Program-made: the position numbers and the translations under genes
Shown: positions 1-17,827 of the stretch, piece after piece
How positions within the stretch are numbered: the first letter of the stretch is position 1
How the letters are laid out: the number at the start of each line of letters is the position of its first letter
Origin: a virus
Reading direction: 5' to 3' (one strand)
DNA: 21,734 nt
IMG/VR virus record: IMGVR_UViG_3300031902_000060
Coordinates: 1-21,734 of that record
Notes under the pieces: generated by a model
Told to the model about the DNA's origin: nothing
The model's input: only the letters and a program-made list of their open reading frames with translations
The model's database searches: none

Positions 1-215
1 CGCACGGCGAGCCGGGCAAAAATCTCGCCGCGATTGCGGCGATGTGGGGCCCGATATTTGGCACCGCGGTAACCCCGCAACAAGTTTGCTTGGCCATGAT
101 CGCGCTTAAGGTTGCGCGCGCCGTCAACAATCCAGATCATCGCGACCATTGGACGGACATTGTTGGGTATTGCGCGCTGGCCGAACGCGTTGGATTTGTC
201 AAGGCCGCGGAATAA
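1..215 (+). CDS. DUF6378-like phage protein, 3' end only
   Basis: The reading frame is open from the window edge and ends in TAA at 213-215, giving about 70 visible residues. The visible part begins HGEPGKNLAAIAAMWG, continues with TPQQVCLAMIALKVARAV and ends with HRDHWTDIVGYCALAERVG. This order (HG-x-P-x-N near the start, a middle helix LMIALK-ARA, then H-R-D-x-W-x-DIVGY) is the pattern I associate with the DUF6378 family of phage proteins, which is of unknown biochemical function. The start codon lies outside the window. The stop overlaps the next ATG by one base (TAATG), so the two genes are probably translationally coupled. Family assignment is by pattern recall, not by search. Confidence 0.72.
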   Translation, partial: HGEPGKNLAAIAAMWGPIFGTAVTPQQVCLAMIALKVARAVNNPDHRDHWTDIVGYCALAERVGFVKAAE

Positions 216-424
216 TGCCCGCGCCGATTGATCCGTTTTGGGTGAACTATTGCGCGCCTCGAGTGGTGCACATGCGCGAGTACGTTGACGCATTCGAGCG
301 CGCCATCGCCGCGGACAATTTCACCGCGGCCGGTGATGCGCTCACCTCTTTGCAGTTGGCAGCGCGCGGCCTGCGCGACAACTTGCCGGCCGGTGATCCC
401 GCCACCGACACTATGCTCGGGTGA
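215..424 (+). CDS. small phage protein of unknown function (69 aa)
   Basis: The ATG at 215-217 overlaps the preceding stop by one base, and the TGA at 422-424 overlaps a following ATG by one base. I chose this start over an earlier in-frame codon at 149 because of that coupling and because the earlier start would overlap the DUF6378-like gene. The protein opens MPAPIDPFWVNYCAPR and then forms a predicted helical segment (EYVDAFERAIAADNFTAAGDAL, then a Leu/Ala-rich helix). No motif that I recognise is present. Its function is unknown. It is probably an early accessory gene in the same transcript as its neighbours. Confidence 0.6.
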   Translation: MPAPIDPFWVNYCAPRVVHMREYVDAFERAIAADNFTAAGDALTSLQLAARGLRDNLPAGDPATDTMLG

Positions 425-497
425 TGCCGTGGGCCGCCATGCGTTTTTTCTATTCGCCATGATCGTCGGCGCCTCGCTCGTGCTTTGGTTTGCGTGA
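424..497 (+). pseudogene. tiny membrane protein gene split by a one-base frame problem at a T6 run
   Basis: An ATG at 424-426 overlaps the stop of the previous gene, but its frame ends after 12 codons at 460-462 (MPWAAMRFFYSP). If the ribosome slips back one base in the T6-C run at 444-450, the frame continues LFAMIVGASLVLWFA to a TGA at 495-497. That TGA again overlaps the next ATG (497-499). The joined product would be 24 residues with a single hydrophobic helix, as for a small membrane peptide. In the 12-codon frame the site reads T TTT TTC, a classical -1 slippery heptamer. Either programmed slippage, a real one-base deletion or a homopolymer sequencing error would explain it. An alternative is a GTG start at 429 in the downstream frame. 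Confidence 0.4.
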
Positions 498-616
498 TGT
501 TTCTCACCCCTGCCGAGCTCGAGCACCTCACCGGCCGCAAGCGCCCAAAAGCGCAGGCCGGCGAGCCATCCGCCCGGGCCGTTCCAAACTTTACAGGATT
601 GCGAGGTATTGCATGA
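497..616 (+). CDS. short DUF4224-like protein (39 aa)
   Basis: The ATG at 497-499 overlaps the preceding TGA by one base, and the TGA at 614-616 overlaps the next ATG (ATGA). The N-terminus MFLTPAELEHLTGRKRPKAQ is the typical opening of DUF4224 proteins, small phage proteins often found in early regions. The C-terminus VPNFTGLRGIA also resembles their usual end. The usual middle part of about 30 residues (a W-L-x-x-x-G-I turn and a V-L-R/P-V-V-x-R strand) is absent, so this looks like an internally deleted family member that kept its reading frame. Whether it is functional is unknown. The start is well supported by the overlaps. Confidence 0.62.
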   Translation: MFLTPAELEHLTGRKRPKAQAGEPSARAVPNFTGLRGIA

Positions 617-1089
617 GTAACACAAACGCCGCAGCGCCCGCCCCCGCGCAGCCCGTAGCGCAGCCCGTGGATGATCTGGTCGCACTGCCATCGTTCATCC
701 GCGATCCAATCGAACGCGCAATTGAGGCCGCGATCCACCCGAAAGGCATGAGCGTTCACGATGGGAAGATGCGGATAGGCAGCGACAAGATCGCATTTCT
801 GCTTCACCGATACGACGCAGCCGCAGCCCGCATCGTGGAGCTGGAAGCGGATGTAGCGCGAATCACTGACGACCGCAACGCCAAGAGCAAGCGTATGTGG
901 GAACTTGGACAAGAAGCCGAGCGTGCCGAGTCCGACCTTGCCGCAGCGCAGGCGGTGATTGTGGCGGCGGATCAATGGCAGCGCAAGGCTCCAGCGAACG
1001 CGAAGATGCAACCGGAAGAATCCAATCTCGTGCGAGCCATAGGCGTATACGCTGAATATCAACATGCCGCACGGAGCGCGAAGCCATGA
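613..1089 (+). CDS. coiled-coil phage accessory protein (158 aa)
   Basis: The ATG at 613 overlaps the upstream stop (ATGA) and is preceded by GAGGT at 603-607 with 5-base spacing, which fixes the start. Residues 5-20 are a Pro/Ala-rich lead (AAAPAPAQPVAQPV). Residues of about 55-115 contain a helical, charged stretch with coiled-coil character (AAARIVELEADVARITDDR, then ELGQEAERAESDLAAAQAV). No enzymatic motif is seen. A 16-base identical stretch is shared with the next gene (936-951 and 1262-1277), within their Leu-Ala-Ala-Ala-Gln helices. Function is unknown. The position suggests an early, non-essential phage gene. Confidence 0.7.
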   Translation: MSNTNAAAPAPAQPVAQPVDDLVALPSFIRDPIERAIEAAIHPKGMSVHDGKMRIGSDKIAFLLHRYDAAAARIVELEADVARITDDRNAKSKRMWELGQEAERAESDLAAAQAVIVAADQWQRKAPANAKMQPEESNLVRAIGVYAEYQHAARSAKP

Positions 1090-1715
1090 CCGCCCCCGCG
1101 CAGGATGATCTTGTGCGATTGCTGCGTTGTTTGGCGTCGCGCAACTCTTCCACGGTCATAGACAAAGCCGCCGACCGCATCGAGGCGCTGGAAGCCGCCC
1201 TTGCGTCGGAGTCACGGGCAGCAGGTAGGGCATACGCGAAGCAATTGAAGGCCGAAGCCGCCCTTGCCGCAGCGCAGACCGAATTGCAGAACATCGCCAA
1301 CGCTAACCCTCGTGAATGGGGCGAGACATCAGACCAGTTCCAGCAGTGGGCACAGAACCGAGCACGCCGCCCGCAAGGTGACGACATGACCCTGACCGAA
1401 CTGATCGCAGTTGCGACGCCGGGACCGTGGATGCTGCGACTAACAAAGGGCAGCGATGCACCGAACACCATCGAGGGGGACTTAGCGACCGCTGATGATG
1501 GAGAGTGTTACGGAAAATGGATTGCCACATTCCCTGAACTGGTAGCCGCGCACGCTGAACAGCAGAAGGTGGACGCCGCACTGATCGTCGCCGCCGTCAA
1601 CAAGATGCCCGCACTGATCGCTGCGCTCAAGGCGGCGGACCACATGCGCAACACTGGCGAGGCAGATGACTGCTTCGCGTATGACCGTGCGCGTGCCGCA
1701 GTGGGGGAACTATGA
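1086..1715 (+). CDS. coiled-coil protein possibly fused to an Ea22-like domain (209 aa)
   Basis: The ATG at 1086 overlaps the preceding stop and has GGAG at 1073-1076. The N-terminal half (residues 1-100) is a helical protein with AADRIEALEAALASES and a closing WAQNRAR motif, a common end for standalone phage accessory proteins. The C-terminal half starts MTLTELIAVATPGPW at an in-frame ATG (1386-1388) preceded by AAGGTG at 1375-1380, and ends with DAALIVAAVNKMPALIAAL. The ATPGPW...A-x-x-IVAAVN-x-x-P signature resembles Ea22/Ead-like phage proteins. So the ORF may make one fused protein, two proteins from nested starts, or be two ancestral genes that lost the stop between them. Function is unknown. 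Confidence 0.7.
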   Translation: MTAPAQDDLVRLLRCLASRNSSTVIDKAADRIEALEAALASESRAAGRAYAKQLKAEAALAAAQTELQNIANANPREWGETSDQFQQWAQNRARRPQGDDMTLTELIAVATPGPWMLRLTKGSDAPNTIEGDLATADDGECYGKWIATFPELVAAHAEQQKVDAALIVAAVNKMPALIAALKAADHMRNTGEADDCFAYDRARAAVGEL

Positions 1716-1894
1716 ATCTAGGAGACGCTATTCTCGGCGTGACACTACGCAAGAAGATGTGCCGTAACGGACACGAGCGCACCAAACAGAACACCACGCG
1801 CAGACCTAACGGCGCGCTCGTCTGCATTCCGTGCCGTACTGCGCAGCGGGAGAGGGAGTACCGGATAGCCAAAGAGAAAAGGAGCAGCAAATGA
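1712..1894 (+). CDS. small Cys/His zinc-finger-like phage protein (60 aa)
   Basis: The ATG at 1712 overlaps the previous TGA and follows a GGGGGA stretch. The protein holds C17-x3-H21 (MCRNGHERT) and C38-x2-C41 (VCIPCRTAQRE), followed by a strongly basic tail (REREYRIAKEKRSSK). This C-x-NGH ... C-x-x-C-R arrangement is common in small phage proteins related to the zinc-binding part of HNH-type nucleases. No catalytic HNH core is present here. A nucleic-acid-binding role is inferred from the putative zinc site and the basic tail. The 3' end overlaps the next ATG by four bases. Confidence 0.68.
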   Translation: MNLGDAILGVTLRKKMCRNGHERTKQNTTRRPNGALVCIPCRTAQREREYRIAKEKRSSK

Positions 1895-2031
1895 AAGACA
1901 AATACGAAGAAGATGATCTGCGCCCGGCTAGAGGTGTGCTGTTCGGGTCGATCTGCGGTGTGTGCATCTGGACCGTGCTGTTCCTGTTCGTTGATGCTGC
2001 GTGGCACTTGTACAAGGGGCTGTTTCCTTGA
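1891..2031 (+). CDS. small single-pass membrane protein (46 aa)
   Basis: The ATG at 1891 overlaps the previous stop (ATGA) and is preceded by AAGGAGC at 1879-1885, a good ribosome binding site. The first 13 residues are highly charged (MKDKYEEDDLRPA). They are followed by a hydrophobic segment of about 20 residues (VLFGSICGVCIWTVLFLFV) and a short tail ending YKGLFP. This predicts one membrane helix with a cytoplasmic acidic N-terminus. Function is unknown. It sits directly before the nuclease-helicase pair, whose TTG start overlaps its stop codon, so it is co-translated with them. Confidence 0.62.
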   Translation: MKDKYEEDDLRPARGVLFGSICGVCIWTVLFLFVDAAWHLYKGLFP

Positions 2032-2315
2032 CCCCTGAAGGCAAGGTGAAAGAGGGCATCAAAAAAGAACTCAAGCGGATCGGTGCTTACTACCACATGC
2101 CAGTACAGAACGGCATGGGGAAACCAACCGTGGACTTCCAGTGCTGTTACCGGGGCCGGGCATTCCTGATCGAAGCCAAGGCTCCCGGTGGCAAGCTCAC
2201 GGTACGGCAGGAGATGACGTTCGCAGAGTTTCGCGCTGCGGGGGGCGCTACGTTCTTAATGGACGGTAGCGATTTGTCTTACACGGAGTTCAGGTTCTGG
2301 TTGTTATCCCTATGA
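2028..2315 (+). CDS. VRR-NUC domain nuclease (95 aa, TTG start)
   Basis: This is a small standalone VRR-NUC nuclease of the PD-(D/E)XK superfamily, predicted to cut structured or branched DNA. Counting from the TTG, the core is YYHMPVQNGMGKPTVDF with D36, then AFLIEAKAPGG with E49 and K51, then Q61. This gives the D...E-x-K signature and a near full-length domain. I chose TTG 2028-2030 over an earlier GTG at 2001 for three reasons: the family typically starts (M)TPEGKVK, AAGGGG at 2014-2019 lies 8 bases upstream, and TTGA overlaps the previous stop. The stop overlaps the helicase start by four bases. Standalone VRR-NUC genes are often paired with SNF2 helicases in phages, as here. Confidence 0.9.
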   Translation: MTPEGKVKEGIKKELKRIGAYYHMPVQNGMGKPTVDFQCCYRGRAFLIEAKAPGGKLTVRQEMTFAEFRAAGGATFLMDGSDLSYTEFRFWLLSL

Positions 2316-3871
2316 TCGTACACACAGAGTCACGTTCGCTGCTGTTGCGGGTGCAGGACACTAACAAGATCAAGGCAGTCATCCCCCGGTGGAAGGACAT
2401 CGACTTCCAAGGGCACAACATCGCAGTACCGCATCGTCTCGATGAGGTGCGCATCCTGCGGAACATCGGGGTCAAGGCTCCGATGCCCATCCTCTATTAC
2501 TACGACTGGCCCCGGCCCGCGCACATCACGCCGTTCGCACACCAGAAGGAGACTGCGGCGTTCTGTACGTTGCATCCGCGCTGCTTCGTGCTCAACGATC
2601 CGGGTACGGCCAAGACGGCAGCCGTGCTGTGGGCCGCCGACTACATGATGAAAACGGGGCAGGTGCGCAAGGTCGTGATCGATGCGCCACTGTCCACGCT
2701 CGATCTGGTTTGGAAGAACGAGATCTTCGGCTACCTGATGCATCGCCGGGCTGCCGTCCTGCATGGCAGCAAGGAGCGCAGGCTGGAGTTGTTGAACCGG
2801 GACTTCGATTTCTACATCGTGAACCATGACGGTGTGGCTACCATCGCCGACGAGATCCGCGCCCGCAACGACATCGATCTCATCATCGTGGACGAGTCGG
2901 CCGAGTACCGCAACGCCGAGACGAACAAGTACGAAGATCTCACCAAGATCATCGGCAAGCGCAGGCTGTGGATGGTGACGGGTACGCCCTGTCCGAAGTA
3001 CCCGACCGATGCGTGGGCGCAGGCCCGGCTGGTGAACAAGGCGCGTGTCCCGGTGTACTTCTCGCAGTGGAAAGACCAGACGATGATGCGCGTGTCCACG
3101 CACAAGTGGGTGCCGCGTGCCGAGAGTTACGAGATGGCATACGAGGTGCTGCAGCCTGCCATTAGATTCAAGAAAGCAGACTGTCTCGACTTGCCACCAG
3201 TTCTGTATGAGAAGCGGCATACCGAACTAACCAAAGCGCAGAAGCAGGCGTACAGCACCATGAAGAACCAGATGGTGATGCAGGGAGATGCCAGCACGAT
3301 CACTGCAGTCAATGCAGCAGATCGGATCTCGAAGCTGCGCCAGATCCTGTGCGGTGTCATCAAGAACACAGCCACTGGTAACTACGAAGAGATCGACCAC
3401 GGCCCACGCGTGAAGCTACTGCTTGAGTGCATCCAGCAGGCAGCGGCCAAGGTCATTGTGATCGTGCCGTTCAAGGGGATCATTCAGGCACTCGAACGGG
3501 AGGTGTCGAAGGAATACTCCTGCGCAGTTATCAATGGAGATGTGAGCAAGGCGCAGCGGGACAAGATCATCACAGCGTTCAAGCACACACCAGATCCCCA
3601 CGTGCTGCTCTGCCATCCGCGAGTAATGGCCCACGGTCTGAACCTGACCGAAGCCGACATGACCATCTTCTACGGACCAATCTATTCTAACAACGAGGAC
3701 CAGCAGGTGATAGAGAGGTTCAATCGACCGGGGCAGACGAGGAAGATGACGATAGTACAGATTGGCGCTATGCCGTTAGAGTGGGGCGTGTATCAGATCG
3801 TAGGTCAGCAGAAGATCGGACAGGAGAATATCTTGTCTCTTTACAGGAACGAAGTATTAGGGGTAAAATGA
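2312..3871 (+). CDS. SNF2-family DEAD/DEAH-type helicase/ATPase (519 aa)
   Basis: This is a superfamily 2 ATPase expected to translocate on duplex DNA. Motif I is LNDPGTAKTA (about 94-103), motif II IIVDESAEYR (about 191-200), motif III VTGTPCP (about 222-228), motif V HGLNLTEAD (about 441-449) and motif VI QQVIERFNRPGQT (about 464-476). The IERFNRPGQT form is typical of SNF2 proteins. Two motifs deviate: the P-loop reads GTAKT rather than GxGKT, and DEAH is DESA. The length is normal for phage members. The start ATG overlaps the VRR-NUC stop (ATGA) and has no strong ribosome binding site, so translational coupling is likely. It probably acts with the nuclease in phage DNA replication or recombination; the exact role is inferred. 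Confidence 0.92.
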   Translation: MIVHTESRSLLLRVQDTNKIKAVIPRWKDIDFQGHNIAVPHRLDEVRILRNIGVKAPMPILYYYDWPRPAHITPFAHQKETAAFCTLHPRCFVLNDPGTAKTAAVLWAADYMMKTGQVRKVVIDAPLSTLDLVWKNEIFGYLMHRRAAVLHGSKERRLELLNRDFDFYIVNHDGVATIADEIRARNDIDLIIVDESAEYRNAETNKYEDLTKIIGKRRLWMVTGTPCPKYPTDAWAQARLVNKARVPVYFSQWKDQTMMRVSTHKWVPRAESYEMAYEVLQPAIRFKKADCLDLPPVLYEKRHTELTKAQKQAYSTMKNQMVMQGDASTITAVNAADRISKLRQILCGVIKNTATGNYEEIDHGPRVKLLLECIQQAAAKVIVIVPFKGIIQALEREVSKEYSCAVINGDVSKAQRDKIITAFKHTPDPHVLLCHPRVMAHGLNLTEADMTIFYGPIYSNNEDQQVIERFNRPGQTRKMTIVQIGAMPLEWGVYQIVGQQKIGQENILSLYRNEVLGVK

Positions 3872-3886
3872 CCGGAAGGGAACCTA

Positions 3887-4111
3887 ATGGGCATACCGGA
3901 GGTGAAGCTGGAAGAGATCGAGTTCAACGTCGGGCAGGTAGAACTGATGTTGAATGGAGTGAAGGTGATAGCGGTGGAGGAACTGGAAGGCAAGTTGCAG
4001 GAGTTCCCCCCGTTCAACGGTAAGCACTCACGGCAGTTGTTGTGCTACGTGGACGGCAAGCTGTGCAGGGTTACAACTGTCACTGGTAACAAAGATCAAT
4101 TCGGCAATTAA
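3887..4111 (+). CDS. conserved-looking small phage protein, unknown (74 aa)
   Basis: The ATG at 3887 has GGAAGGG at 3874-3880 with 6-base spacing. The protein starts MGIPEVKLEEIEFNVGQVEL and contains a middle stretch VEELEGKLQEFPPFNG, then LLCYVDGKLCRVTTVTG. It looks like a small alpha/beta fold. I recognise no family. An ATG at 3868 overlaps the helicase stop, but its frame gives a low-complexity Gly/Arg-rich peptide and is a shadow of this gene. Location between the helicase and the DNA-metabolism genes suggests a related role, by inference only. Confidence 0.65.
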   Translation: MGIPEVKLEEIEFNVGQVELMLNGVKVIAVEELEGKLQEFPPFNGKHSRQLLCYVDGKLCRVTTVTGNKDQFGN

Positions 4112-4127
4112 CTTAATGGGAGCAATG

Positions 4128-4592
4128 ATGACCACCGAGATTACAGACGAGAAGCTGGTGAAGGTGTACGTGAAGATGCGCGCAGAGCGCAGTCGCTTGG
4201 CCAAGGAGTACAAGGCGGCCGACGAAGCGCTCAAGGAACAGCAGGGCAGGATCACAGGCGAATTGCTGCGCCGCCTGAACGACCGTGGGTCAACGCAAAC
4301 CAAGACCGAAGCAGGGACGGCGTTCATTGGCGAGGACATGCAGGTGAGCATCGCCGACGAGGAGATCTTCCGCACGTTCGTGCTGGATGCGAAGGATCTG
4401 AACTGGTATCAGAAGCGCGTGAAGATCGAGCACTTGCGCGAGTACATGAAGGTCAATGGCGGTCGGCTCCCGCCCGGCCTGAGTGTCTTTAGGGAGAGGA
4501 CGATTCTGGTCCGCGCCCCGAAGAAGGATGGATCTGGAGCAGCAGTAGAGATGCAGGAGTTTGAAGAACCTAACGCCGCTGCAGCGGCATAA
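4128..4592 (+). CDS. conserved phage replication-region protein, unknown function (154 aa)
   Basis: The N-terminal half is helical and charged (TDEKLVKVYVKMRAERSRLAKEY, then EQQGRITGELLRRLNDRG). It is followed by TQTKTEAGTAF, an acidic IADEEIFRTFVL, and VNGGRLPPGLSVFRERTILVR near the end. The ordering (VYVKMRAER...LNDRGSTQTKTEAGT...GGRLPPGL) matches a common phage family usually left as hypothetical and often found next to a putative ssDNA-binding protein, as here. I chose the ATG at 4128 because GGAG at 4119-4122 lies 5 bases upstream; ATGs at 4125 and 4116 are possible. It ends with an Ala run and is 16 bases from the next gene. Confidence 0.75.
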   Translation: MTTEITDEKLVKVYVKMRAERSRLAKEYKAADEALKEQQGRITGELLRRLNDRGSTQTKTEAGTAFIGEDMQVSIADEEIFRTFVLDAKDLNWYQKRVKIEHLREYMKVNGGRLPPGLSVFRERTILVRAPKKDGSGAAVEMQEFEEPNAAAAA

Positions 4593-4608
4593 CAATCGGA
4601 GCAATGAA

Positions 4609-5739
4609 ATGACAGCAACCAACGCAGTGACCCTGTTCGACGCAACCGCAGGGATGCCCGCTCACCTCGTGGACATCAACGAGCAGAGCAACATCGAGAT
4701 CCGCGACATCGTTGACACTCTGTCCTTCCGGGGCAAGGTGTGGCGCATCAATCGCGGCGGCATCGAAACGATTGCCCGCAACAAGGAAGGCGAGCCGGTG
4801 TCCACGTTGCAGATGGTGGTGCTGGACTACAACAAGTCTCGCAGCCGGGCGCTCTACCCGAAGTATGTCGAGGGCCAAAGCAAGCCGCCAATCTGCTGGA
4901 GCAACGACGGCGTTACTCCTGACAACGACGTGCAACAGAAGCAGGGCGCGGCCTGCGCTTCGTGCCCGCAGTCGCAGAAGGGTTCCAAGATCAACGACGA
5001 CGGCCAGCCGGGCGTTGCCTGCGCCAGCTTCAAGCGTGCGGTCGTGGTGCCCATCGTGCAGCCTGACTTCCCGCCGCTGCTCCTGAAGGTCCCGCAAACG
5101 TCGATGTACGATAAGGACAACAAGGAGAACGAGAACCTTGGCAACTACGCGTTCGATCAGTACATGGAGATGCTGAAGGCTCGTGGTGTGAACAACACCG
5201 CATCAGTCGTCACCAAGCTCTCGTTCGACGCGCGCACGTCGTACCCGAAGCTGCTGTTCAAGGCGGCAGCGTGGCTCCCGGTCGAGAAGGCCGAAGCCGT
5301 GCGGGCGCAACTGGCGAACAAGGATCTGCTGGAGAAGATGCTGAAGATAGTGGACGTGTCCACGCCATCGGCGCAAGCCCCGGCTCCGGAAGAGTTCGAG
5401 CAAGCCGCACCTGCCGCTGTCACCAAGGCACCCCCGGCACCAGCCCCGGCTCCTGCGGCACCCCCGCCCGCACCGAAGCCCGCTGCGCCTGCCCCGGCCG
5501 CACCCGCGACTCCGCGCCCGGCCAAGAAGGCGGCTCCTGCACCCGCACCGACGCCCGCACCGACGCCTGCGGCTCCCCCTGCGGATGACGACGAGCCGGT
5601 GTTCATCGCGGCCGGTGAAGCGGCTCCTGCGGTCGCTGCAGCCAAGCCGGTCAATGCTCCTGCGGCTCCTGCTGCTGCGCCTGCGCAAGCCGGTGATGCG
5701 CTCGCATCGCTGGTCAGCGGCTGGGACGACGGCGAGTAG
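4609..5739 (+). CDS. candidate phage ssDNA-binding protein with Cys4 site and Pro/Ala linker (376 aa)
   Basis: Residues 1-250 form a globular domain (DIVDTLSFRGKVWRINRGG, then LDYNKSRSRALY and FPPLLLKVPQTSMYD) resembling phage proteins I have seen in the place of single-strand DNA-binding proteins. Four cysteines are spaced C96-x19-C116-x2-C119-x18-C138, suggesting one zinc. Residues 255-360 are a Pro/Ala/Lys-rich linker, and the protein ends LASLVSGWDDGE. A flexible linker plus an acidic, Trp-containing tip is the general design of SSB proteins that recruit partners. The ATG at 4609 has CGGAGC at 4597-4602. The SSB role is inference from architecture and position between the helicase and primase genes. 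A terminator follows the gene. Confidence 0.72.
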   Translation: MTATNAVTLFDATAGMPAHLVDINEQSNIEIRDIVDTLSFRGKVWRINRGGIETIARNKEGEPVSTLQMVVLDYNKSRSRALYPKYVEGQSKPPICWSNDGVTPDNDVQQKQGAACASCPQSQKGSKINDDGQPGVACASFKRAVVVPIVQPDFPPLLLKVPQTSMYDKDNKENENLGNYAFDQYMEMLKARGVNNTASVVTKLSFDARTSYPKLLFKAAAWLPVEKAEAVRAQLANKDLLEKMLKIVDVSTPSAQAPAPEEFEQAAPAAVTKAPPAPAPAPAAPPPAPKPAAPAPAAPATPRPAKKAAPAPAPTPAPTPAAPPADDDEPVFIAAGEAAPAVAAAKPVNAPAAPAAAPAQAGDALASLVSGWDDGE

Positions 5740-5804
5740 AACTGGTAATGGGGTGTCGCTGAGACTTAATGCGCCGTGCAGCGTGCGCGCCCCGATAGTT
5801 CTTT

Positions 5805-5829
5805 GGCCGGTCATCACGACGGCCTTTTT
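5805..5829 (+). terminator. rho-independent terminator after the candidate SSB gene
   Basis: GGCC-G-GTC at 5805-5812 pairs with GACGGCC at 5818-5824 across the 5-base loop ATCAC, with one bulged G, and is followed by TTTTT at 5825-5829. It lies between the stop at 5739 and the regulator start at 5850. It would partly or fully separate the helicase/SSB transcript from the regulator and primase. Confidence 0.75.
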
Positions 5830-5849
5830 CTTTCTACTCAGGAGTAGTC

Positions 5850-6215
5850 ATGTCACGTGGACTTCGTAAGGACACCATTGATCGCATCGTACTTGCACGC
5901 GAACAAAAGCCACTATCGCTAGGCCCGTACTTGGGTGAGCTTACAGTGCGCGCCAACATCACTGCTGCCACCGTTGCATCAGTCGTCGGTGCCCACGAGC
6001 AGACGGTGTTCCGTTGGTTCTTTGGGCAAGGAGAAGTGCAACCTGTGTGGGGTAACAAGGTGGCAAAGTTCATGGCGCTTCTCGCTTGGATGCATGCTAC
6101 AAAACGTGTACCACTAGAAGGAACCTTGCGCGAACGGGAGACACAACTGCAGCTTCATGCCGCAGAATATGCGAACATTGCGAAGGGGGGAGTCAAGCTC
6201 CCGCTGGATGCATGA
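5850..6215 (+). CDS. helix-turn-helix phage regulator (121 aa)
   Basis: The ATG at 5850 has CAGGAGTAG just upstream. Residues of about 34-60 form a helix-turn-helix (RANITAATVASVVGAHEQTVFRWF), followed by FGQGEVQPVWGNKVAKFMALL. That arrangement, T-x-x-x-VA-x-x-x-G-x-x-x-x-TV-x-x-WF-x-G followed by V-x-P, is common in small phage DNA-binding proteins. The C-terminus (residues 85-121) is helical and has no recognised domain. It sits between a terminator and the primase-helicase gene and may regulate this module. The target is not visible from the sequence. No promoter is evident in the 20 bases after the terminator, so its transcription may depend on read-through. Confidence 0.78.
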   Translation: MSRGLRKDTIDRIVLAREQKPLSLGPYLGELTVRANITAATVASVVGAHEQTVFRWFFGQGEVQPVWGNKVAKFMALLAWMHATKRVPLEGTLRERETQLQLHAAEYANIAKGGVKLPLDA

Positions 6216-6252
6216 GTCGCTGTTCCTCGTTCAAATAACAGGGAGAACCTAG

Positions 6253-9210
6253 TTGGACACAAGGGCGTTCTTGCGTCACGTTTTGCCCGACACTGGTCCC
6301 TACTGCATCGTCAAGCAAATCGAATTCGAGGGGGGCCATAAGGCTCCTCAACATTTTCCGGCGCACACCATTGACGAAGCTGCAGCAATAGCCAGCCGCA
6401 TCAACCATGAGGGATACAACACATTCTTTGCCGTCGGCGCACTGGTCAAGGATCAGCATTGGGTGCCGAAACTCGACCGCGACAAGAAGCCGATATTCCT
6501 CAAATCAGGAGAGCAGGTCTATCGTTGGAAAACACTGCGCACCGCCGAGAACATCCGTGGGCTGCGCAGCTACATCATCGACCTAGACGTAGGTTTCAAA
6601 AAGGATGGTTCCCCACGCGGCTACGAGACTGAGGACGATGCTATTGCAGGGCTTGTCGCTTTTTGCAAGTGGGGGCATCTCCCCAAGCCCACTGTCATCA
6701 GCAGTGGAAATGGTCTGCACGTCTACTTCACGCTCGAATCGGAAGTCCCGGCGCTCACATGGAAAAATCATGGAGAATCCCTCAAGGAGATGGCGTTATC
6801 GTTCGGGCTGAAATTGGACACTGGCCGCACTGCCGATGCAGCGAGTGTCTTACGGGTAGTTGGTTGCCACAACTTCAAATATGATCCGCCCCCACTTGTC
6901 AAGTGTCTGTGCGTTGGCACTCATACCCCTAACGATATGTTCCACGGCCTGCTGCGACTGCACGACAACGCGGCCGGGCTGGATCTGCCGGGCGAACAGC
7001 AGGTGTTTTTTCGGAGCGACAACACCGGCAAGCAGGAGAAAGAAAGGGCGTGCCTAGACTTCCCCACGCTCGTGGACGTGTGTCAGGTAGTACGTCGTGC
7101 TGTCGATCCTGCGACGCGTGACCAGACCCCGGAGCCGGTGTGGCACAAGGTCATGATGCTGCTGCGACTGGTGCAGACACCGGAGAAGGGACGCAAGCTG
7201 TGCCACGTAGTTTCCAAGGGAGATCCGCGCTATTCGGAAGAGTATCTGAACGCCAAGCTGTCCGATCTCGAAAACAAAAACATGGGGCCGTCCACGTGCA
7301 AGACGGTCCACGAGACGATGCTGCCAGCACAGGATGTCTGCGCAGACTGCCCGCATTGGGGCAAGATCACTTCACCCGCGCAGCTTGCGCGCTATCTGCC
7401 ACCGACCGAGACACTGGTCGTTGCGGTGGCGAATGATGACGGCGAGGTAGTAGAGGTGGAAGTGCCCGAGCCACCGGAGCCGTTCGTACGTCGGCACGGT
7501 CGCATTGCAATCCAGAAGGGCAGCACATCGGGCACCACTGAGATCGAGTTCTGTAACGACATGTACCCGATCCGGCTGCAGTACGATGAAGTCACCAAGC
7601 TGGAAGAGGAAGTGCTGTGGCGCATCAACATGCCACACGAGGGGTGGGTGGAGCTTGGCATTCCCCACTGTTCAAAAAATCAGTTGGCGACGATCCTGCA
7701 CAAGCGTGGCGTGCGCGTTCGTACAGCCGACATCGAGACAATGGAGTGGTTCATGACGGCATACGTACGCAAGCTGCAGGCCGACACGCCGCGCGAGATG
7801 ACGTACACCAAACAAGGATGGAGGAAGGATGGCAGCTTCATCGTCGGGGACACTGTTTACCGTCGCAACGGCGACATCGAGAAACATGCGATGGGTACCA
7901 AGCTCCAGAATGACACTCAGCACGGCATGTATGTCGAAGGCACGCTGGACGGTTGGCGTAACGCCACGCAGATTTACACTCGCCCCGGCATGCACCGCTC
8001 GCGGCTTTACCTATACGCATCCCTTGGCAGTCCTTTATTCTGTTTCACCAATCAGGTAGCAACGTTCCTCAGTGCCACGGGCGAAGGCGGCGTGGGCAAG
8101 TCAACGTTGATGGAAGTGGCTGCCGCGATATGGGGCGATCCCCGCAGGCTTATAGCTCGTGGCAGCAACGATGGGTCCACGCGCGCTGCGGCTGAAGCGA
8201 TGGCCAATGGCATGAACAACCTGCCGATCTTCCTTGACGAGATCACTGACCGCGATGCGGAAGAAATGAACTCGTTCATCCTCAACTACAGCGGTGGCAA
8301 GGGCAAGCTGCGCAGTCAGGTGTCGGGCGGCATTCGTCCAGACACGGCGACGTGGAGCAACCTCGCTCTGGTCAACGCGAACGCCGACGAGTATGCCCGC
8401 ATGGCATCGGTGTTCAAGGACAGCGGCCCATCGCAGATGCGCTTGGTGCAGATCGAGTTCCCTTCCACCAGTGACATCGTGAGCAAGACCGAAGGGGACG
8501 CGACCAAGGCGGCGGTGTTCGAGAACTTCGGGCACGCCGGGCATCTCATCGGTGGCTACTACGCAACGCATGCCACGGCGATGAAGGCGAAGGTGCAGAA
8601 GTATGTGATCGAAGCCGACAAGCAAACCGGGGGACTGAGCACCGAGCGCTTCTGGATTGCCACGGCGGCGAGCATGCGCGCTGCGGCGGAAGCTGCGTAT
8701 GACTTGGGGCTGCTGCCGAACTTCCCGGTCGAGAAGGACATCGAGGGGTTGTACGAACTCATCATTAACCTACGTGAACAGGTGGCACGCAACACCACGT
8801 CACCGGATGAAATGCTGTCCGAGTTCCTTGACTTCGCGCTGCCGCGCACGCTGACGATTCAATCGAAGAACTCAGGCAATATCGACAACGTTCGCGGCGA
8901 ACCTCACGGTGGCCTGACCGTGCGGCATGAGGTGGACACCGACCGGGCCTACATCAGCCGGGCGATCTTCCAGCAGTATTGCGTCGAGCGCCACATCAAC
9001 CTGAACCGGCACATCAAGGCGCTCTATGCCAAAGGCGTCGTGCTGCACGAGAACATGCGCAAGGTGCTGGGTGCCGGGACGATGTTCGCCAAGGGCAACG
9101 TGCGATGTATCGAAGTCGATCTGAGCAAGCTGCAGGGCCGACTGCATTCTGTGCCATCATCCGCTTCCTCTGCTCCTACCCAAATGCCGCAGCGGAAAAC
9201 GGGTCCGTGA
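6253..9210 (+). CDS. primase-helicase: AEP primase plus DUF927/SF3-like ATPase (985 aa)
   Basis: This is a bifunctional replication protein. The N-terminal archaeo-eukaryotic primase part has D110-L-D112 (YIIDLDVG), SSGNGLHVYF at about 150-159 and LDTGRTADAASVLRVVG at about 188-204, the three standard metal and nucleotide motifs. A Cys cluster follows (C349 ... C363-x2-C366, then PHWGKITSPAQL), as in many phage primases. The C-terminal ATPase has Walker A GEGGVGKST at about 610-618, Walker B LPIFLDEI at about 657-664 and a sensor-like LALVNANAD at about 704-712, matching DUF927-type helicase domains. The start is TTG 6253-6255, supported by GGGAGA at 6241-6246. It should prime and unwind phage DNA; no polymerase is in the window. 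Confidence 0.93.
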   Translation: MDTRAFLRHVLPDTGPYCIVKQIEFEGGHKAPQHFPAHTIDEAAAIASRINHEGYNTFFAVGALVKDQHWVPKLDRDKKPIFLKSGEQVYRWKTLRTAENIRGLRSYIIDLDVGFKKDGSPRGYETEDDAIAGLVAFCKWGHLPKPTVISSGNGLHVYFTLESEVPALTWKNHGESLKEMALSFGLKLDTGRTADAASVLRVVGCHNFKYDPPPLVKCLCVGTHTPNDMFHGLLRLHDNAAGLDLPGEQQVFFRSDNTGKQEKERACLDFPTLVDVCQVVRRAVDPATRDQTPEPVWHKVMMLLRLVQTPEKGRKLCHVVSKGDPRYSEEYLNAKLSDLENKNMGPSTCKTVHETMLPAQDVCADCPHWGKITSPAQLARYLPPTETLVVAVANDDGEVVEVEVPEPPEPFVRRHGRIAIQKGSTSGTTEIEFCNDMYPIRLQYDEVTKLEEEVLWRINMPHEGWVELGIPHCSKNQLATILHKRGVRVRTADIETMEWFMTAYVRKLQADTPREMTYTKQGWRKDGSFIVGDTVYRRNGDIEKHAMGTKLQNDTQHGMYVEGTLDGWRNATQIYTRPGMHRSRLYLYASLGSPLFCFTNQVATFLSATGEGGVGKSTLMEVAAAIWGDPRRLIARGSNDGSTRAAAEAMANGMNNLPIFLDEITDRDAEEMNSFILNYSGGKGKLRSQVSGGIRPDTATWSNLALVNANADEYARMASVFKDSGPSQMRLVQIEFPSTSDIVSKTEGDATKAAVFENFGHAGHLIGGYYATHATAMKAKVQKYVIEADKQTGGLSTERFWIATAASMRAAAEAAYDLGLLPNFPVEKDIEGLYELIINLREQVARNTTSPDEMLSEFLDFALPRTLTIQSKNSGNIDNVRGEPHGGLTVRHEVDTDRAYISRAIFQQYCVERHINLNRHIKALYAKGVVLHENMRKVLGAGTMFAKGNVRCIEVDLSKLQGRLHSVPSSASSAPTQMPQRKTGP

Positions 9211-9218
9211 TTTAGAAG

Positions 9219-9246
9219 TTGCAATCCACAGCTAGGGGTATACAAT
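9219..9246 (+). promoter_or_regulatory. sigma70-like promoter for the 9275 gene
   Basis: TTGCAA at 9219-9224 and TACAAT at 9241-9246 are spaced by 16 bases; they match the -35 and -10 consensus at 4 and 5 of 6 positions. They lie just upstream of a gene with a near-perfect ribosome binding site, after the end of the primase-helicase gene. The start point would fall near 9253. Expression is predicted, not shown. Confidence 0.55.
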
Positions 9247-9260
9247 CTTCTGGCTGTGGA
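9225..9260. repeat. 8-bp inverted repeat flanking the -10 box (operator-like)
   Basis: TCCACAGC at 9225-9232 and its exact reverse complement GCTGTGGA at 9253-9260 are separated by 20 bases. The left arm sits in the promoter spacer and the right arm at the expected transcription start. The arm centres are 28 bases apart, close to but not exactly three helical turns. It may be a binding site for a dimeric or looped regulator, for example the helix-turn-helix protein encoded upstream, or it may form a hairpin. Both are inference. Confidence 0.55.
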
Positions 9261-9274
9261 CTCTAGGAGGTGAA

Positions 9275-9664
9275 ATGCGTATTAACCACCACGTGTACTT
9301 CCATGAAGATCCGGAAGAGATGAGTCTGCTACACAAGCTCGTTACCCTCGTTACCAACCAAGGAGCACAATTCATGTCCGCATTCGATGACGTTGTTGCA
9401 TCACTGTCCACTCTCGAAACCAGCGTCACCGGCACCGTTGTGCCCCTGCTGACCGCAGTCGGCACGGAACTCGACGCCCTGTCCACGGCGCTGACCAATG
9501 CGCTGGCCGCTGGCTCGACTGCCTCGCTCGCCCCGATCAAGGAGCGCATCGATGCGGTCAACAAGGCGATCTCGGACGGCGCTGCCGCTCTGGCCGCCAT
9601 TGCCACCAAGGACGCGCCGCCTGCTCCCCCGGCTCCCGCAGATCCCGGCCTGCCCCCGGCCTAA
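9275..9664 (+). CDS. small Ala/Thr-rich coiled-coil phage protein with two possible starts (129 or 96 aa)
   Basis: The ATG at 9275 follows TAGGAGGT (9264-9271), one of the best ribosome binding sites in the window. The N-terminus MRINHHVYFHEDPEEM is followed by LLHKLVTLVTNQGAQFMSAFDD and a heptad-like helical stretch (SLSTLETSVTGTVVPLLTAV, ALSTALTNALAAG, IKERIDAVNKAI) ending in a Pro/Ala tail. A second in-frame ATG at 9374 follows CAAGGAG (9359-9365) with 8-base spacing and would give a 96-residue product. Similar short coiled-coil proteins are widespread near phage structural genes, without known function. It has its own promoter candidate, so it is probably expressed separately from the replication genes. 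Confidence 0.75.
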   Translation: MRINHHVYFHEDPEEMSLLHKLVTLVTNQGAQFMSAFDDVVASLSTLETSVTGTVVPLLTAVGTELDALSTALTNALAAGSTASLAPIKERIDAVNKAISDGAAALAAIATKDAPPAPPAPADPGLPPA

Positions 9665-9671
9665 GCAGTTG

Positions 9672-9701
9672 AAAAAAAGCCCCCGGCGCAATGCCGGGGG
9701 C
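9672..9701 (-). terminator. strong rho-independent terminator of the virion operon
   Basis: GCCCCCGGC at 9679-9687 and GCCGGGGGC at 9693-9701 form a perfect 9-bp stem with a 5-base loop. Reading the minus strand, it is followed by seven T residues (the A tract at 9672-9678). It lies 60 bases beyond the stop of the last minus-strand gene. On the plus strand no T tract follows, so it should act mainly on the virion operon. Confidence 0.88.
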
Positions 9702-9707
9702 AAGGAA

Positions 9708-9748
9708 CGTCGGAAGGGAGGAAGCATCCGACGACGCTGGAGCAGCGT
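9708..9748. other. two further hairpins in the convergent junction
   Basis: CGTCGGA at 9708-9714 pairs with TCCGACG at 9727-9733 (7 bp, 12-base loop), and immediately next ACGCT at 9734-9738 pairs with AGCGT at 9744-9748 (5 bp, 5-base loop). Neither has a T tract. They may protect 3' ends or weakly attenuate plus-strand read-through. No gene is seen between 9665 and 9760. Confidence 0.45.
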
Positions 9749-9760
9749 AGGCTTATCCTA

Positions 9761-11671
9761 TCATGATGCGGCCACCTGCTCAGTCATCGCCGCCAAGCTC
9801 GTTACTCCTGACATCACCGATCCTGCAGTCGCGGCATACACCGCGCCCACCTGCTGCAGCCCCTGCGCCGCGCGTACGGCACTCTCCAGCCGCACCGTCC
9901 ACTGCGACAGGTTCTCCCGCCCCATCTCCATCTGCTGTTGCGTCTGCGTCGAGTTGAAGGAGCGAATCTGCTCCATGCTCGTGGCCCAATACGTTGCCTG
10001 AATCCGCAACTGCTCGACCGCCGCTGACCATTCCGTCTTGTACGCTTCCATGTTGTACCCGAACGCCTTGAGCAGTCCTTCGGCCTTGGCCGTCCACGTG
10101 TTGAGCAGTGACTTGTTACTGGTAGCCACTGCTTCCGTGCGCGCCGCCAGCCCACGCACGCGCGCCTCGTAGGCCGTCGCTTCGGCGGTGTACGCCTGCA
10201 CCGATCCGAGGTAGCCGCGCACCTGCTCCGCGTACACCTGCGCCTTGGCTTCCTGCCCCTTGACCTGTGCCGTGTATCCTTCCCAGCGCGCCCGGTAGGC
10301 ATCGACCGTGGCTGTGAAGCCGCGCGTCTGCGACTCGTACACCGTCGCCCGCACCCGGTCCACTTCCAGTTTGGCCGTCTCCGCTTCGATCTGCGTCTTG
10401 TACAGATTCACCGATGCCTGATTGGCATTGATGAGCGCTTCAAGGAACTTGACCTTGGAGTTGTTGATCTCGACCTTGGCCATCTCGGCATCGATCTGCG
10501 CCTTGTACATGCTGATGCGCATCATCTGCGCCTCGATCTGCGCCTTGTACACCTCGACGTTCGCCTTGTATCCTTCCCAGCGTGCTAGGTAGATCTGGAT
10601 GATCGCCTTGTTAACTTCGATCATGCCAGTGAGCACCGTCTTGGTAAGCTCTACTGCTTGCCCATTGAGTTCAGCATTGACCTTGGCGATGTCCATCGAC
10701 GTTTGACACAGCAGTGTCTCCAGTCCTTTGCCGAAGTCGAGCATGAACTTCATGTGGTCATGCTCAAGCGTGATGTTGTTGATCGCCACATCCGTGACCA
10801 CCTTGGAGACAGCACTGCTCTCCAACTGCGCTGCTTCCTTCAACCCTGCCATGAGCGCACCGCTGGGCATCCACAGCCCACGCTTGGCCATCTCCCCCCA
10901 TACCTTCTGCGAAGCGCGGCGCTGCTCTGCCGTCACCCGGTCCTGCGCCCGCGCTACGGTCGCGTCCTCGATAGTCGTTGGCACCCCGGAGCCGCCAGTG
11001 CTCAGGTAACTCGTGGTCACGGCCAGCATCGCCGGGAGCAACGGATGGTCAGCCATCAGGTTCGCGTACCACTGCCGCCAGTTCGCCTGCACCAGTGCTG
11101 GGATCGAGTTCGAGTAGGTGGCATACGTGCTGGTAAGAAGTGCCAAATAGTCGTTCAGCGAGATCGAGGAGATCGGATCGGGGGCCACTCCTGAGAACAC
11201 AGCATCCACAATTACAGGCGCTGTGGGCAGGTTCAGCGTGGGGTAGGGCACCGACGTGTCGCCGAGAGGCAGGAGCGAGGGCGCATACGGCAGGTTGATG
11301 GATGCTGAGAGGCCCGGCGCGACCGGAGCCGAGCCGATAGACGGGGACGGATCGCCGGGGATCGTGATGACCGGCACCACGGGTGGCGTGATGGTCAGGG
11401 TCTTGGTGAAATCGGGCAGGTCGATGGGCACCACCTGCACGTCAGGCAGGTTGTCCAGATTGGGCGTGCCCGGTCGCCCCGGCCGACTGAACGTGATGTC
11501 AGGCGAACCGAACGCCATAACCGGGAACTCGAAGTTGTATGGTGTGTACTCAACACCAGCAACATCCTGCAGCGCGGAAGCGGCAGCCGACAATGCCGTG
11601 GACGCATCCGTCACCAACTGCTGTGCGATGATGTCGTGTTCTTCAAGGATTGCCAGCGGATCGGAAGCCAT
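9761..11671 (-). CDS. virion structural protein with long coiled-coil core (636 aa)
   Basis: Residues of about 1-40 are helical (MASDPLAILEEHDIIAQQLV). Residues of about 55-180 are Pro-rich with little helix (PGTPNLDNLPDVQVVPIDLP, then VPVITIPGDPSPSIGSAPV). Residues of about 250-290 hold RRASQKVWGEMAKRGLWMPS. Residues of about 290-580 are a long helical region with recurring VYKAQIEA / MYKAQIDAEMAKVE / LYKTQIEAETAKLE units. This order, Pro-rich head, A-x-RGL-x-P-SGAL, then a repeated YKAQIEA coiled coil, is a common phage family annotated as virion structural or hypothetical. The exact place in the particle is unknown to me. The start has AGGAA just upstream and lies 9 bases after the previous stop. 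It is the last gene of the operon. Confidence 0.85.
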   Translation of the reverse strand: MASDPLAILEEHDIIAQQLVTDASTALSAAASALQDVAGVEYTPYNFEFPVMAFGSPDITFSRPGRPGTPNLDNLPDVQVVPIDLPDFTKTLTITPPVVPVITIPGDPSPSIGSAPVAPGLSASINLPYAPSLLPLGDTSVPYPTLNLPTAPVIVDAVFSGVAPDPISSISLNDYLALLTSTYATYSNSIPALVQANWRQWYANLMADHPLLPAMLAVTTSYLSTGGSGVPTTIEDATVARAQDRVTAEQRRASQKVWGEMAKRGLWMPSGALMAGLKEAAQLESSAVSKVVTDVAINNITLEHDHMKFMLDFGKGLETLLCQTSMDIAKVNAELNGQAVELTKTVLTGMIEVNKAIIQIYLARWEGYKANVEVYKAQIEAQMMRISMYKAQIDAEMAKVEINNSKVKFLEALINANQASVNLYKTQIEAETAKLEVDRVRATVYESQTRGFTATVDAYRARWEGYTAQVKGQEAKAQVYAEQVRGYLGSVQAYTAEATAYEARVRGLAARTEAVATSNKSLLNTWTAKAEGLLKAFGYNMEAYKTEWSAAVEQLRIQATYWATSMEQIRSFNSTQTQQQMEMGRENLSQWTVRLESAVRAAQGLQQVGAVYAATAGSVMSGVTSLAAMTEQVAAS

Positions 11672-15654: not shown

Positions 15655-16095
15655 CTACAAGGTCGGCAGGCCGATGGAGAACGTGTCAACGGGATACAAC
15701 GTAGTGTTCACCAACGCGACCACGGGCAGGATCATCTCTGCGGCCGACAGTCCCACCAGCCCCTGCACCCGCGCATCCGTGGTGCTGAGCACACCTGAGT
15801 CAGTCGATGTCACCAAGCGGTAGTGCGTCACCGTGGCTGTGGCTACTGCGTTCCCACTCCACACTTCGGCCAGCGTCTTGGTAATCACACCACCGGCCGC
15901 CGCCGAAGCAAACGTCAGCCCCGTAGCCGTGGCGTTATTCGAGAGCGTCAGTACCAACGATCCCGTCAGTGTGGCATCCGCCGACGCGGGCACCGTTCCC
16001 GAATACAGCTTGACGAACCCGAGATTGAAGATTGTCCGGAACGCTGCTGTATCGAGCAGCTTGTTGCGCAGCCCGGTCGAAAGTTGCAGGGCCAT
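15655..16095 (-). CDS. small virion-associated protein, paralogue of the upstream gene (146 aa)
   Basis: The protein starts MALQLSTGLRNKLLDTAAF, then FVKLYSGTVPASADATLTG, followed by ATGLTFASAAAGGVITKTLA, EVWSGNAVATATVTHYRLV and VDTFSIGLPTL. The layout (LSTG-x-x-NK-LLD, Y/F-SG-x-P-x-x-AD, GLTF/ITF, V-x-x-K, W, then a terminal D-x-x-x-I-x-LP) is shared with the 150-residue protein encoded immediately upstream, so the two are tandem duplicates. This layout is common among small phage tail-region proteins of unknown role. The ATG lies two bases after the stop of the paralogue, showing tight coupling. Confidence 0.8.
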   Translation of the reverse strand: MALQLSTGLRNKLLDTAAFRTIFNLGFVKLYSGTVPASADATLTGSLVLTLSNNATATGLTFASAAAGGVITKTLAEVWSGNAVATATVTHYRLVTSTDSGVLSTTDARVQGLVGLSAAEMILPVVALVNTTLYPVDTFSIGLPTL

Positions 16096-16097
16096 CG

Positions 16098-16550
16098 TTA
16101 CGCCTTCGGCAGTTGGATGGTGAGTGAGTCAACGGACGTGACCGCAGACGTGACGATGTTGGTGTTGCTGATGTTGGCGTCCGCGCCCGCCGTGCCGATG
16201 GTGCCGGTGATCCGTGCGAACGTGGCCGATGCGCCCGTGTACGTGTCGCCGGTCTGGTAGATCATGAACCAGCCTGCCACGCCAGTTGCTAGGCCGTGGA
16301 ACTTCCAGTTCTGCGAAGCGGCCTTGCTGGAGACACCGGCCACGGCAGCATCGAACGTGATCGCCGTTACCCCGTCATCGTTGTTGGTCACGGTGCCCAG
16401 CAGAGTGGCCGAGCCAGATCCGCTGTCCGCGTCCGCAGGTTGTGATCCGGCGAAGATCGCCATGAAGCCACCGAAGGCACCCTTGATGCCGCCCGTGGTG
16501 CCGCCGTCCAACATCTTGTTGACCATTCCGGTAGACAGACGAATTGTCAT
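16098..16550 (-). CDS. small virion-associated protein, first of a tandem paralogue pair (150 aa)
   Basis: The ATG overlaps the stop of the upstream 426-residue gene by four bases (ATGA on the minus strand), and AGAGGATC lies upstream. The sequence starts MTIRLSTGMVNKMLDGGTTGG, then FMAIFAGSQPADADSGSGS and ITFDAAVAGVSSKAASQNW, and ends VDSLTIQLPKA. It resembles a recurrent phage protein pattern (LSTGL-x-NA ... IFSG-x-QP-x-x-AD ... LTFDAP-x-x-GV-x-SK) whose function I do not know. The Ala/Gly/Thr-rich beta-type composition fits a small virion or tail component. It forms a duplicate pair with the next gene. Confidence 0.8.
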   Translation of the reverse strand: MTIRLSTGMVNKMLDGGTTGGIKGAFGGFMAIFAGSQPADADSGSGSATLLGTVTNNDDGVTAITFDAAVAGVSSKAASQNWKFHGLATGVAGWFMIYQTGDTYTGASATFARITGTIGTAGADANISNTNIVTSAVTSVDSLTIQLPKA

Positions 16551-17827
16551 CGCTCGATCCTCTGGTTGAATGCAGGGTTGCCGCTTACGGTGGAAGCCAG
16601 TAGCTTACCGTAGCCGCGAGAGTAAAACAGACGTGCATGATTGAACACGCCGGGGTCGCCAGAAAAAGTCTTTTCGGTGAGTAGTTCGTACGGCATTGCT
16701 TTGGCAATTCCCCGCACCGTCCAGAAATACGCCGTGCCATCAGGAGCCACGTCGCCACAACTGCCCAGCACTACACCATACTGAGTAAGCTCTGTCAACG
16801 TAGTGCCGTCCCAATGGTAGATCTGGTTGTCAGTGCCAATGATGAGTCCCTTTGGGGTATCAAGCATCAGCACCACTTCCCCTATCACCGTCAGGAAGTC
16901 CTCTGCTTTGTTGAACAGGTGATACTGCAGTGGCAAGCTAATCCACACCACGCTCATGCCAACCTGTTCCACATACTCAGCCGCGTACAACTGGCCGTTG
17001 TAATGCTTGATCGTGCGGCAAGCGCTGGGGTACGCTTCGACGGCAACAGTGTAGGGATAGACCACACCACCCTTCGCATATAGCTGATCGACCGTTATGG
17101 TGACAGTCTGCGTGGTAAACGTGCCCACCAGCATGTACTCATCACCACCGGGCGGGCAGGCGTAGATGTTGGTGTACTTGTACTTCACCGGCACATCCAC
17201 CTGCACTATCGCTGATTCCGGAGGGGCGGTCACGGGGATGATCGCCGAAGGCGCGGACTCCCGGCCATCGGCCGCGACGTAGGTAGCAAAGACGCGGAAG
17301 GTATTTGAGACGTAGCGCCCGCCGATGTTGAAGGCCAGCACCTGTCGCGTACCGGAACTCAGGAGCGTAGCGGAGTTGATGACCGGCGTGTCGATGCCCA
17401 GCGGCACCCAATCGGTCCCCTGCCGCACGATCCCCATGTCGATCCCGTCCGTGTAGTAGATAAAGTTGCTTGGATCTTCAGTCCAGTAGAAGCCGCCCGG
17501 TGGCCCCAGCAGGGACAGGCCGCTAGCCAGTGTCGTGGTCGAGCCATCCGGATTCACGCGCACACAAAGTCCGTCCTTGATGGCGATCAAGAAGTTCTGG
17601 CTGTTGTTGGCGTATGCGCCGCGATAATTACCTGCTGCAAATAGCGTGTAGCCACTGCGCCGTACGATCTGCTTCTCGTTGTCGATCTCGACGTTGACCG
17701 CAGACTTGAGGCCAGTCCAGCCGATCTCCTTGGGCGACTTGGTGTTGATGATGCCATCGAACTTGCCAAACGATGCGTCATCGACGCCGACTGCGGCCGG
17801 GCGTGGGCGGGATTCCGGAATGGCCAT
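16547..17827 (-). CDS. phage virion protein, predicted beta-propeller-like (426 aa)
   Basis: The ATG follows AGGAGGTC with close spacing. The N-terminal part has INTKSPKEIGWTGLKSAVNV, then IDNEKQIVRRSGYTLFAAG, followed by short strand motifs (FLIAIKDGLCVRV, FIYYTDGIDMGIVR, FATYVAADGRESAPS) and later CRTIKHYNGQLYAAEYV and GLIIGTDNQIYHWDG. The A-x-N-V-x-I-D-x-x-x-x-x-x-RR-GY opening and repeated four-stranded blade-like segments are typical of a widespread phage structural family whose members lie in the head-tail or tail region. I infer a propeller fold. The stop overlaps the next gene by four bases and it is co-translated with the paralogue pair. Confidence 0.8.
   Translation of the reverse strand: MAIPESRPRPAAVGVDDASFGKFDGIINTKSPKEIGWTGLKSAVNVEIDNEKQIVRRSGYTLFAAGNYRGAYANNSQNFLIAIKDGLCVRVNPDGSTTTLASGLSLLGPPGGFYWTEDPSNFIYYTDGIDMGIVRQGTDWVPLGIDTPVINSATLLSSGTRQVLAFNIGGRYVSNTFRVFATYVAADGRESAPSAIIPVTAPPESAIVQVDVPVKYKYTNIYACPPGGDEYMLVGTFTTQTVTITVDQLYAKGGVVYPYTVAVEAYPSACRTIKHYNGQLYAAEYVEQVGMSVVWISLPLQYHLFNKAEDFLTVIGEVVLMLDTPKGLIIGTDNQIYHWDGTTLTELTQYGVVLGSCGDVAPDGTAYFWTVRGIAKAMPYELLTEKTFSGDPGVFNHARLFYSRGYGKLLASTVSGNPAFNQRIER

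Follow-up and report, generated by a model that had tools for sequence, protein, structure and literature searches.

The virus record analyzed here is a phage fragment of 21,734 bases, and this whole stretch, at its full length, is referred to below as the window. Judging from the protein matches, the + strand genes look like a replication module, at the end of which lies a small gene facing a group of oppositely oriented genes:

2312-3871, + strand: SNF2-like helicase gene, with PHROGs and Pfam matches
4609-5739, + strand: SSB-like gene, assigned from the C-terminus of its product and matching a PHROG without a function
5850-6215, + strand: small gene with a weak helix-turn-helix (HTH) match
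6253-9210, + strand: DUF927 primase/helicase-like gene (below, the primase gene), with PHROGs and Pfam matches, its end separated by 14 nt from the stem described below
9275-9664, + strand: gene for a 129-aa protein, the last of the replication cluster, following the primase gene after a 64-nt gap
9374-9664, + strand: possible shorter in-frame product of 96 aa, starting at ATG 9374 with AAGGAG at 9360-9365 before it
9679-9701, - strand: intrinsic-terminator-like site, a 9-bp stem plus TTTTTTT, after the opposing genes
9761, - strand: end of the last gene of the opposing group

PHROGs matches were obtained for 5 of the 8 - strand proteins scanned, mostly of the head, connector or tail kind. Two adjacent - strand genes, 15655-16095 and 16098-16550, gave matches to one and the same virion structural protein, phrog_3758, and are probably a tandem duplication. 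No tRNA was found in the window, and a search of the window against Rfam gave 0 matches. Among annotated phages, seven records in all matched the primase, the best relative being that of Pseudomonas phage Rollin, which is 28.5% identical across 99% of the query; the literature looked up under phage Rollin contained no paper on this phage lineage. Of the 13 related loci in genome contigs, 11 are in MAGs, and five carry names that we take to be betaproteobacterial.

The SSB-like protein encoded at 4609-5739 contains a linker rich in Pro and Ala and ends in SGWDDGE, and its relatives in the compared loci L002, L004 and L009 end in EDWDDD or AGWDD; this C-terminus resembles the acidic tip of single-strand DNA-binding proteins. 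Between this gene and the small gene at 5850-6215, the + strand carries a terminator-like stem (5805-5824) followed by UUUUUCUUU (to 5833), which is missing from our list of terminators; the stretch 5800-5836 folds at -10.2 kcal/mol (z -3.05). Given this stem, the small gene may constitute a separate unit with the primase gene, and transcription of this unit would continue into the last gene.

A sequence-only reading of the gap between the primase gene and the last gene had described a promoter, an inverted repeat around its -10 box and a strong ribosome binding site, and these elements are present at the positions given: a -35-like TTGCAA (9219-9224) separated by a 16-nt spacer from a -10-like TACAAT (9241-9246), an exact 8-bp inverted repeat formed by TCCACAGC at 9225-9232 and GCTGTGGA at 9253-9260, and the binding site TAGGAGGT at 9264-9271. 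That reading overlooked a longer structure: once G·U pairs are included, the arms extend to 14 uninterrupted bp, 9225-9238 with 9247-9260. The site is thus composed as follows:

9219-9224, + strand: -35-like hexamer TTGCAA, 4/6 match
9225-9238, + strand: 5' arm, UCCACAGCUAGGGG, of the stem, beginning with the 8-nt arm of the exact repeat
9239-9246, + strand: 8-nt loop UAUACAAU, which holds the -10-like hexamer
9241-9246, + strand: -10-like hexamer TACAAT, within the loop, 5/6 match
9247-9260, + strand: 3' arm of the stem, CUUCUGGCUGUGGA
9264-9273, + strand: Shine-Dalgarno sequence TAGGAGGTGA, its AGGAGG starting 4 nt past the stem

The promoter-like site is sigma-70-like and matches at 9 of 12 positions overall. 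Scanning both strands of 1-10000 yielded three such sites, all on the + strand, with 3.6 ± 2.2 expected, so that the match is at chance level for the region scanned; within the 64-nt gap itself, a promoter-like site arises in 68 of 5,000 dinucleotide shuffles. Only this one of the three is accompanied by both a strong binding site and a stem that reaches 11 bp or more, in agreement with the earlier claim that the combination is unique in this region. Exact 8-bp inverted repeats are not enriched and stand at chance level in the window: with 3-40 nt allowed between arms, we counted 16 arm positions, several of which belong to one repeat, versus 20.3 on average when the same count was applied to 20 shuffles. 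Taken singly, the promoter and the repeat are each weak evidence.

The stem is considerably more distinctive as RNA. The + strand RNA of 9225-9260 folds at -22.5 kcal/mol (z -6.6), with none of 200 shuffles as stable, versus a much weaker -12.6 kcal/mol for the - strand RNA and -8.4 and -6.5 for the two strands folded as DNA. The symmetry of the DNA is broken at three positions of the 14-nt arms (T/C, G/A and G/A), all of which become G·U pairs in the + strand RNA. With an equal chance of about one in six for each, three G·U pairs at three non-Watson-Crick positions would occur about once in 200 cases, a figure to be read knowing that the extent of the stem was chosen by the same pairing; the pattern is suggestive of RNA. 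Neither strand of the window yielded another uninterrupted stem of at least 14 bp with a loop of 3-12 nt. In 40 whole-window shuffles, the + strand contained a mean of 0.275 stems of at least 14 bp; for stems that have such energy and at least 11 bp, the mean was 0.15. This puts the chance expectation at about 0.15-0.28 such stems per window for a site that was picked after the fact. The stem has an equal in energy within the window, the - strand terminator stretch, which folds at -22.7 kcal/mol, and 3 of 1,000 shuffles of the 64-nt gap fold as stably as the gap does.

Two established classes of structure were considered for this stem and rejected. It is not an intrinsic terminator, because no U tract follows it (CUCUAGGAGG comes after the stem), and it is absent from the terminator list, in which loops of 3-8 are allowed. 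Nor does it belong to a known RNA family: the best local Rfam match, mir-7180, had an E value of 0.45 and 15.8 bits versus a gathering score of 78. Searching for the stem pattern with fixed bases retrieved 0 viral contigs. Overall, the feature is real and probably non-random, albeit of an ordinary kind, and the repeat flanking the -10 box appears better read as an mRNA hairpin than as a protein-binding DNA site.

The opposite view, in which each arm serves as a half-site of an operator in the DNA and a repressor, perhaps the 5850-6215 protein, sits over the -10 box of an independent promoter, seems unlikely to us. The arms are exact, present and flank the -10 box, as had been noted, and the 5850-6215 protein weakly matches phage repressor and CII-like profiles (E 0.0065 and 0.0079). 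Words resembling the arm are also somewhat frequent in the window: allowing at most one mismatch to TCCACAGC, we found 35 versus 25.4 expected, a count reached in 1 of 100 shuffles, but only five are exact, and two of these are the site itself. An operator nevertheless fits poorly with the chance-level frequency of exact 8-bp repeats, with the distance of 28 bp between the symmetric 8-bp arms, about 2.7 helical turns and hence no integral number of them, which is wide for one ordinary dimer operator (looping or two dimers could still fit), and with a symmetry that extends solely as G·U pairs on one strand. A further objection comes from the relatives, in which a small gene occupies the equivalent place without the site. 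A gene of 101-106 aa precedes the primase in L004, L006, L005 and L009, though not in L002 or L003; none of these four loci has the stem, so the small gene there is independent of this site. Any HTH kinship of these small proteins is tentative: the three that were aligned share 15-18% identity with the 5850-6215 protein, and the L005 protein gave a weak regulator match (E 0.0096), with none for L004 and L009. With one of three relatives' proteins having such a match, the argument from synteny against 5850-6215 as the regulator is weakened; the operator becomes no likelier for that, since the case against it rests on the arm spacing and on the G·U pairs. Thus, of the operator-like repeat, the exact arms hold, and the operator itself is disfavored.

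Downstream of the stem, AGGAGGTGA at 9265-9273 matches the Shine-Dalgarno consensus word over nine bases, the longest such match among the 21 listed starts (one of which, at 4122, is misplaced); the next-longest, before the gene at 16547-17827, has 7 bases. Among the same 21 starts, the fold of the leader falls below a z of -1 only here (-3.64), the next value being -0.95. The predicted free fraction of this Shine-Dalgarno sequence is 0.16-0.40 for RNAs starting at 9100-9211, versus 0.11-0.39 for RNAs starting at 9253-9254. In both RNA forms, it is predicted to be mostly paired with the nearby coding sequence, in a structure that scores no better than chance (z +0.65 for 9261-9330 and -1.18 for 9253-9330). 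Since accessibility is similar with and without the 5' arm, the stem does not appear to hide the Shine-Dalgarno sequence; we accordingly rejected direct sequestration of the T4 type, and these predictions count against a simple open/closed switch. A leader peptide was likewise rejected: TTG 9219 opens a frame of 15 codons that ends on the Shine-Dalgarno sequence, but no ribosome binding site is seen before this TTG, and open runs of such length are common.

Our best reading of these data is that the site represents a + strand intercistronic mRNA hairpin with an embedded promoter-like sequence, located between the primase gene and the last gene. RNA reading through from the HTH and primase genes would fold the stem. 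With 14 nt between the primase stop and the beginning of the stem, a ribosome terminating there should leave the stem unmelted. The base of the stem reaches to -15 from ATG 9275, a position that falls inside the usual 30S footprint. A stem that is left unmelted and lies within this footprint would uncouple the last gene from the primase and lower its translation, by slowing 30S loading on the read-through RNA; in addition, it may serve as a boundary for processing or stability. Transcription from the embedded promoter would start 6-8 nt past the -10 box, at about 9252-9254, within the 3' arm, and the resulting RNA, lacking the 5' arm, could not form the stem and would escape this control.

These components merit different degrees of belief. 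That the locus exerts local expression control of an ordinary kind is probable, and so is the proposal that the last gene has control of its own. The independent control of this gene claimed earlier is plausible given the 64-nt gap, the promoter-like site, of a kind that arises in 68 of 5,000 gap shuffles, and the strongest Shine-Dalgarno sequence among the listed starts; its weaker part is control through an operator. As to whether the stem has an RNA-level function of any kind, we consider the balance even, and as this particular uncoupling switch it is a tentative proposal that we rather doubt. Somewhat further down, the notion that the promoter embedded in the loop acts as a timing switch, with the read-through RNA poorly translated and the promoter RNA free of the stem, looks improbable. 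Against the best reading itself, the promoter RNA is predicted to be no more open at the Shine-Dalgarno sequence, and an AU-rich loop favors a chance -10 box.

Two other explanations have to be set against the hairpin with an embedded promoter. The stem could be an mRNA processing or stability element, either an RNase III site or an end-protecting hairpin, independent of promoter use. T7-type intercistronic RNase III sites are longer, irregular stems, with which the present stem shares a position between phage genes and a strong Shine-Dalgarno sequence a short way downstream. Its intercistronic position and strength, together with this downstream sequence, suit such an element, whereas 14 bp is short for RNase III and the -10 box in the loop is left to chance. 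We give a low probability to this possibility, which is contained within the even chance assigned to RNA-level function as a whole. The last explanation, in which a stem arose at random in a short, lower-GC gap together with a chance promoter match, draws on the 0.275 stems of at least 14 bp that shuffles yield per window, on a number of promoter-like sites that matches expectation and on the lack of conservation among relatives. Coincidence would also have to account for the placement of the stem in a 64-nt gap right before the longest Shine-Dalgarno match, and for stabilities reached by 3 of 1,000 shuffles of the gap and none of 200 shuffles of the 36-mer, and we regard it as a poor bet.

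Among the literature covered, the nearest published logic appears to be that of T4 gene e, one of the phage genes with a leader stem, along with soc, 49 and I-TevI (PMC3014915). In gene e, RNA from upstream folds an inhibitory stem, and the late-promoter RNA lacks the 5' portion of this stem (PMC3014915). The -10-like box here lies in the loop and is itself a chance-level promoter match; RNA started from it would miss the 5' strand. The differences are substantial. T4 leaders have the Shine-Dalgarno sequence and/or the AUG in the helix (PMC3014915), whereas here both are outside, with the stem ending at 9260 and the Shine-Dalgarno sequence beginning at 9264-9265, and predicted accessibility is unchanged. 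Moreover, T4 gene e uses late promoters, TATAAATA (PMC3014915), in contrast to the sigma-70-like match here. We see little likelihood that the site implements a gene e-like timing logic, acting through the stretch just upstream of the Shine-Dalgarno sequence and not by hiding it, in an unrelated phage lineage. The RNA operator of T4 gene 43 is likewise a hairpin upstream of a phage gene start and lies about 40 bases upstream, with the operator running to the ribosome binding site and bound by the gene's own product (PMC3014915); the 129-aa protein here, by contrast, has no relatives that we could find.

Comparison of the region following the primase gene indicates that the site is a single instance. 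In L004, L006, L009 and L021, the next + strand frame overlaps the primase stop by 4 nt, and the encoded proteins differ among these loci; L020 and L032 have long - strand frames after the primase stop. On this sequence comparison, the primase gene is followed by a variable cargo position. We examined 87 relative rows, one of which ran off the contig, leaving 86 that represent 82 distinct contexts, five with less than 120 nt remaining. Within 120 nt of the primase stop, an uninterrupted stem of at least 9 bp is present in 24 of the 86 rows, a 12-bp stem in six and a longer one in none; the post-primase stems of two relatives reach -20 kcal/mol, and that of L032 is terminator-like, because a T run follows it. 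Of the 13 genome loci, three were checked, and none of these three had a stem of 9 bp. A wider screen for leader stems (at least 10 bp, at -16 kcal/mol or below, within 15 nt), covering 849,544 bases of loci, unrelated and overlapping ones included, in which 763 start sites matched a Shine-Dalgarno pattern, was passed by two distinct leaders, those of the window and of L086. Since neither the gene nor the stem occurs in any relative found, there is no covariation to draw on, and since the relatives lack the stem after the primase, it belongs with the 129-aa gene and not with the primase.

Phage accessory ("moron") loci typically comprise a gene that is missing from relatives, in a variable position, with its own promoter and its own terminator. 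The 129-aa gene is absent from the relatives, with other genes occupying the slot in L004, L006, L009 and L021, and a promoter-like site precedes it. The likeness ends downstream, where no + strand terminator is listed after the gene up to 10000 and the strong terminator beside it serves the - strand. If the stem works as we infer, it illustrates how a phage could append a gene to its replication cluster while keeping the expression of this gene apart from that of the cluster. More generally, inverted repeats found at promoters deserve testing at the RNA level as well as the DNA level, and G·U pairs confined to one strand help to distinguish the two.

For the 129-aa gene (9275-9664) itself, GC is lowest at codon position 2, which fits a coding sequence, and a protein model made without an alignment predicts three helices (mean pLDDT 68.3). 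The protein matched no family in PHROGs or Pfam at E 0.001; at looser limits, the best hits were a tape measure family in PHROGs (E 0.029) and a Pfam match at E 0.0024 with 18.4 bits, under the cut-off of 38. Further searches with limits from E 1e-3 to 1, one of them without a positive control, retrieved no relative; matches beyond these were one at E 7 in phages, one at E 0.46 in PDB and, by tblastn against the compared loci, weak ones at E 0.11 and 0.53. None was found in plasmids at E 1, nor in viral contigs and genome contigs by a search reaching close relatives only, and the back-translated motif NHHVYFH occurs in 10 stretches of viral contigs, none of which could be taken for the beginning of a protein like this one. 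Finally, the terminator arm at 9679-9687, GCCCCCGGC, recurs at the end of the gene (9652-9660), which gives the other arm, 9693-9701, two possible pairing partners on the + strand.
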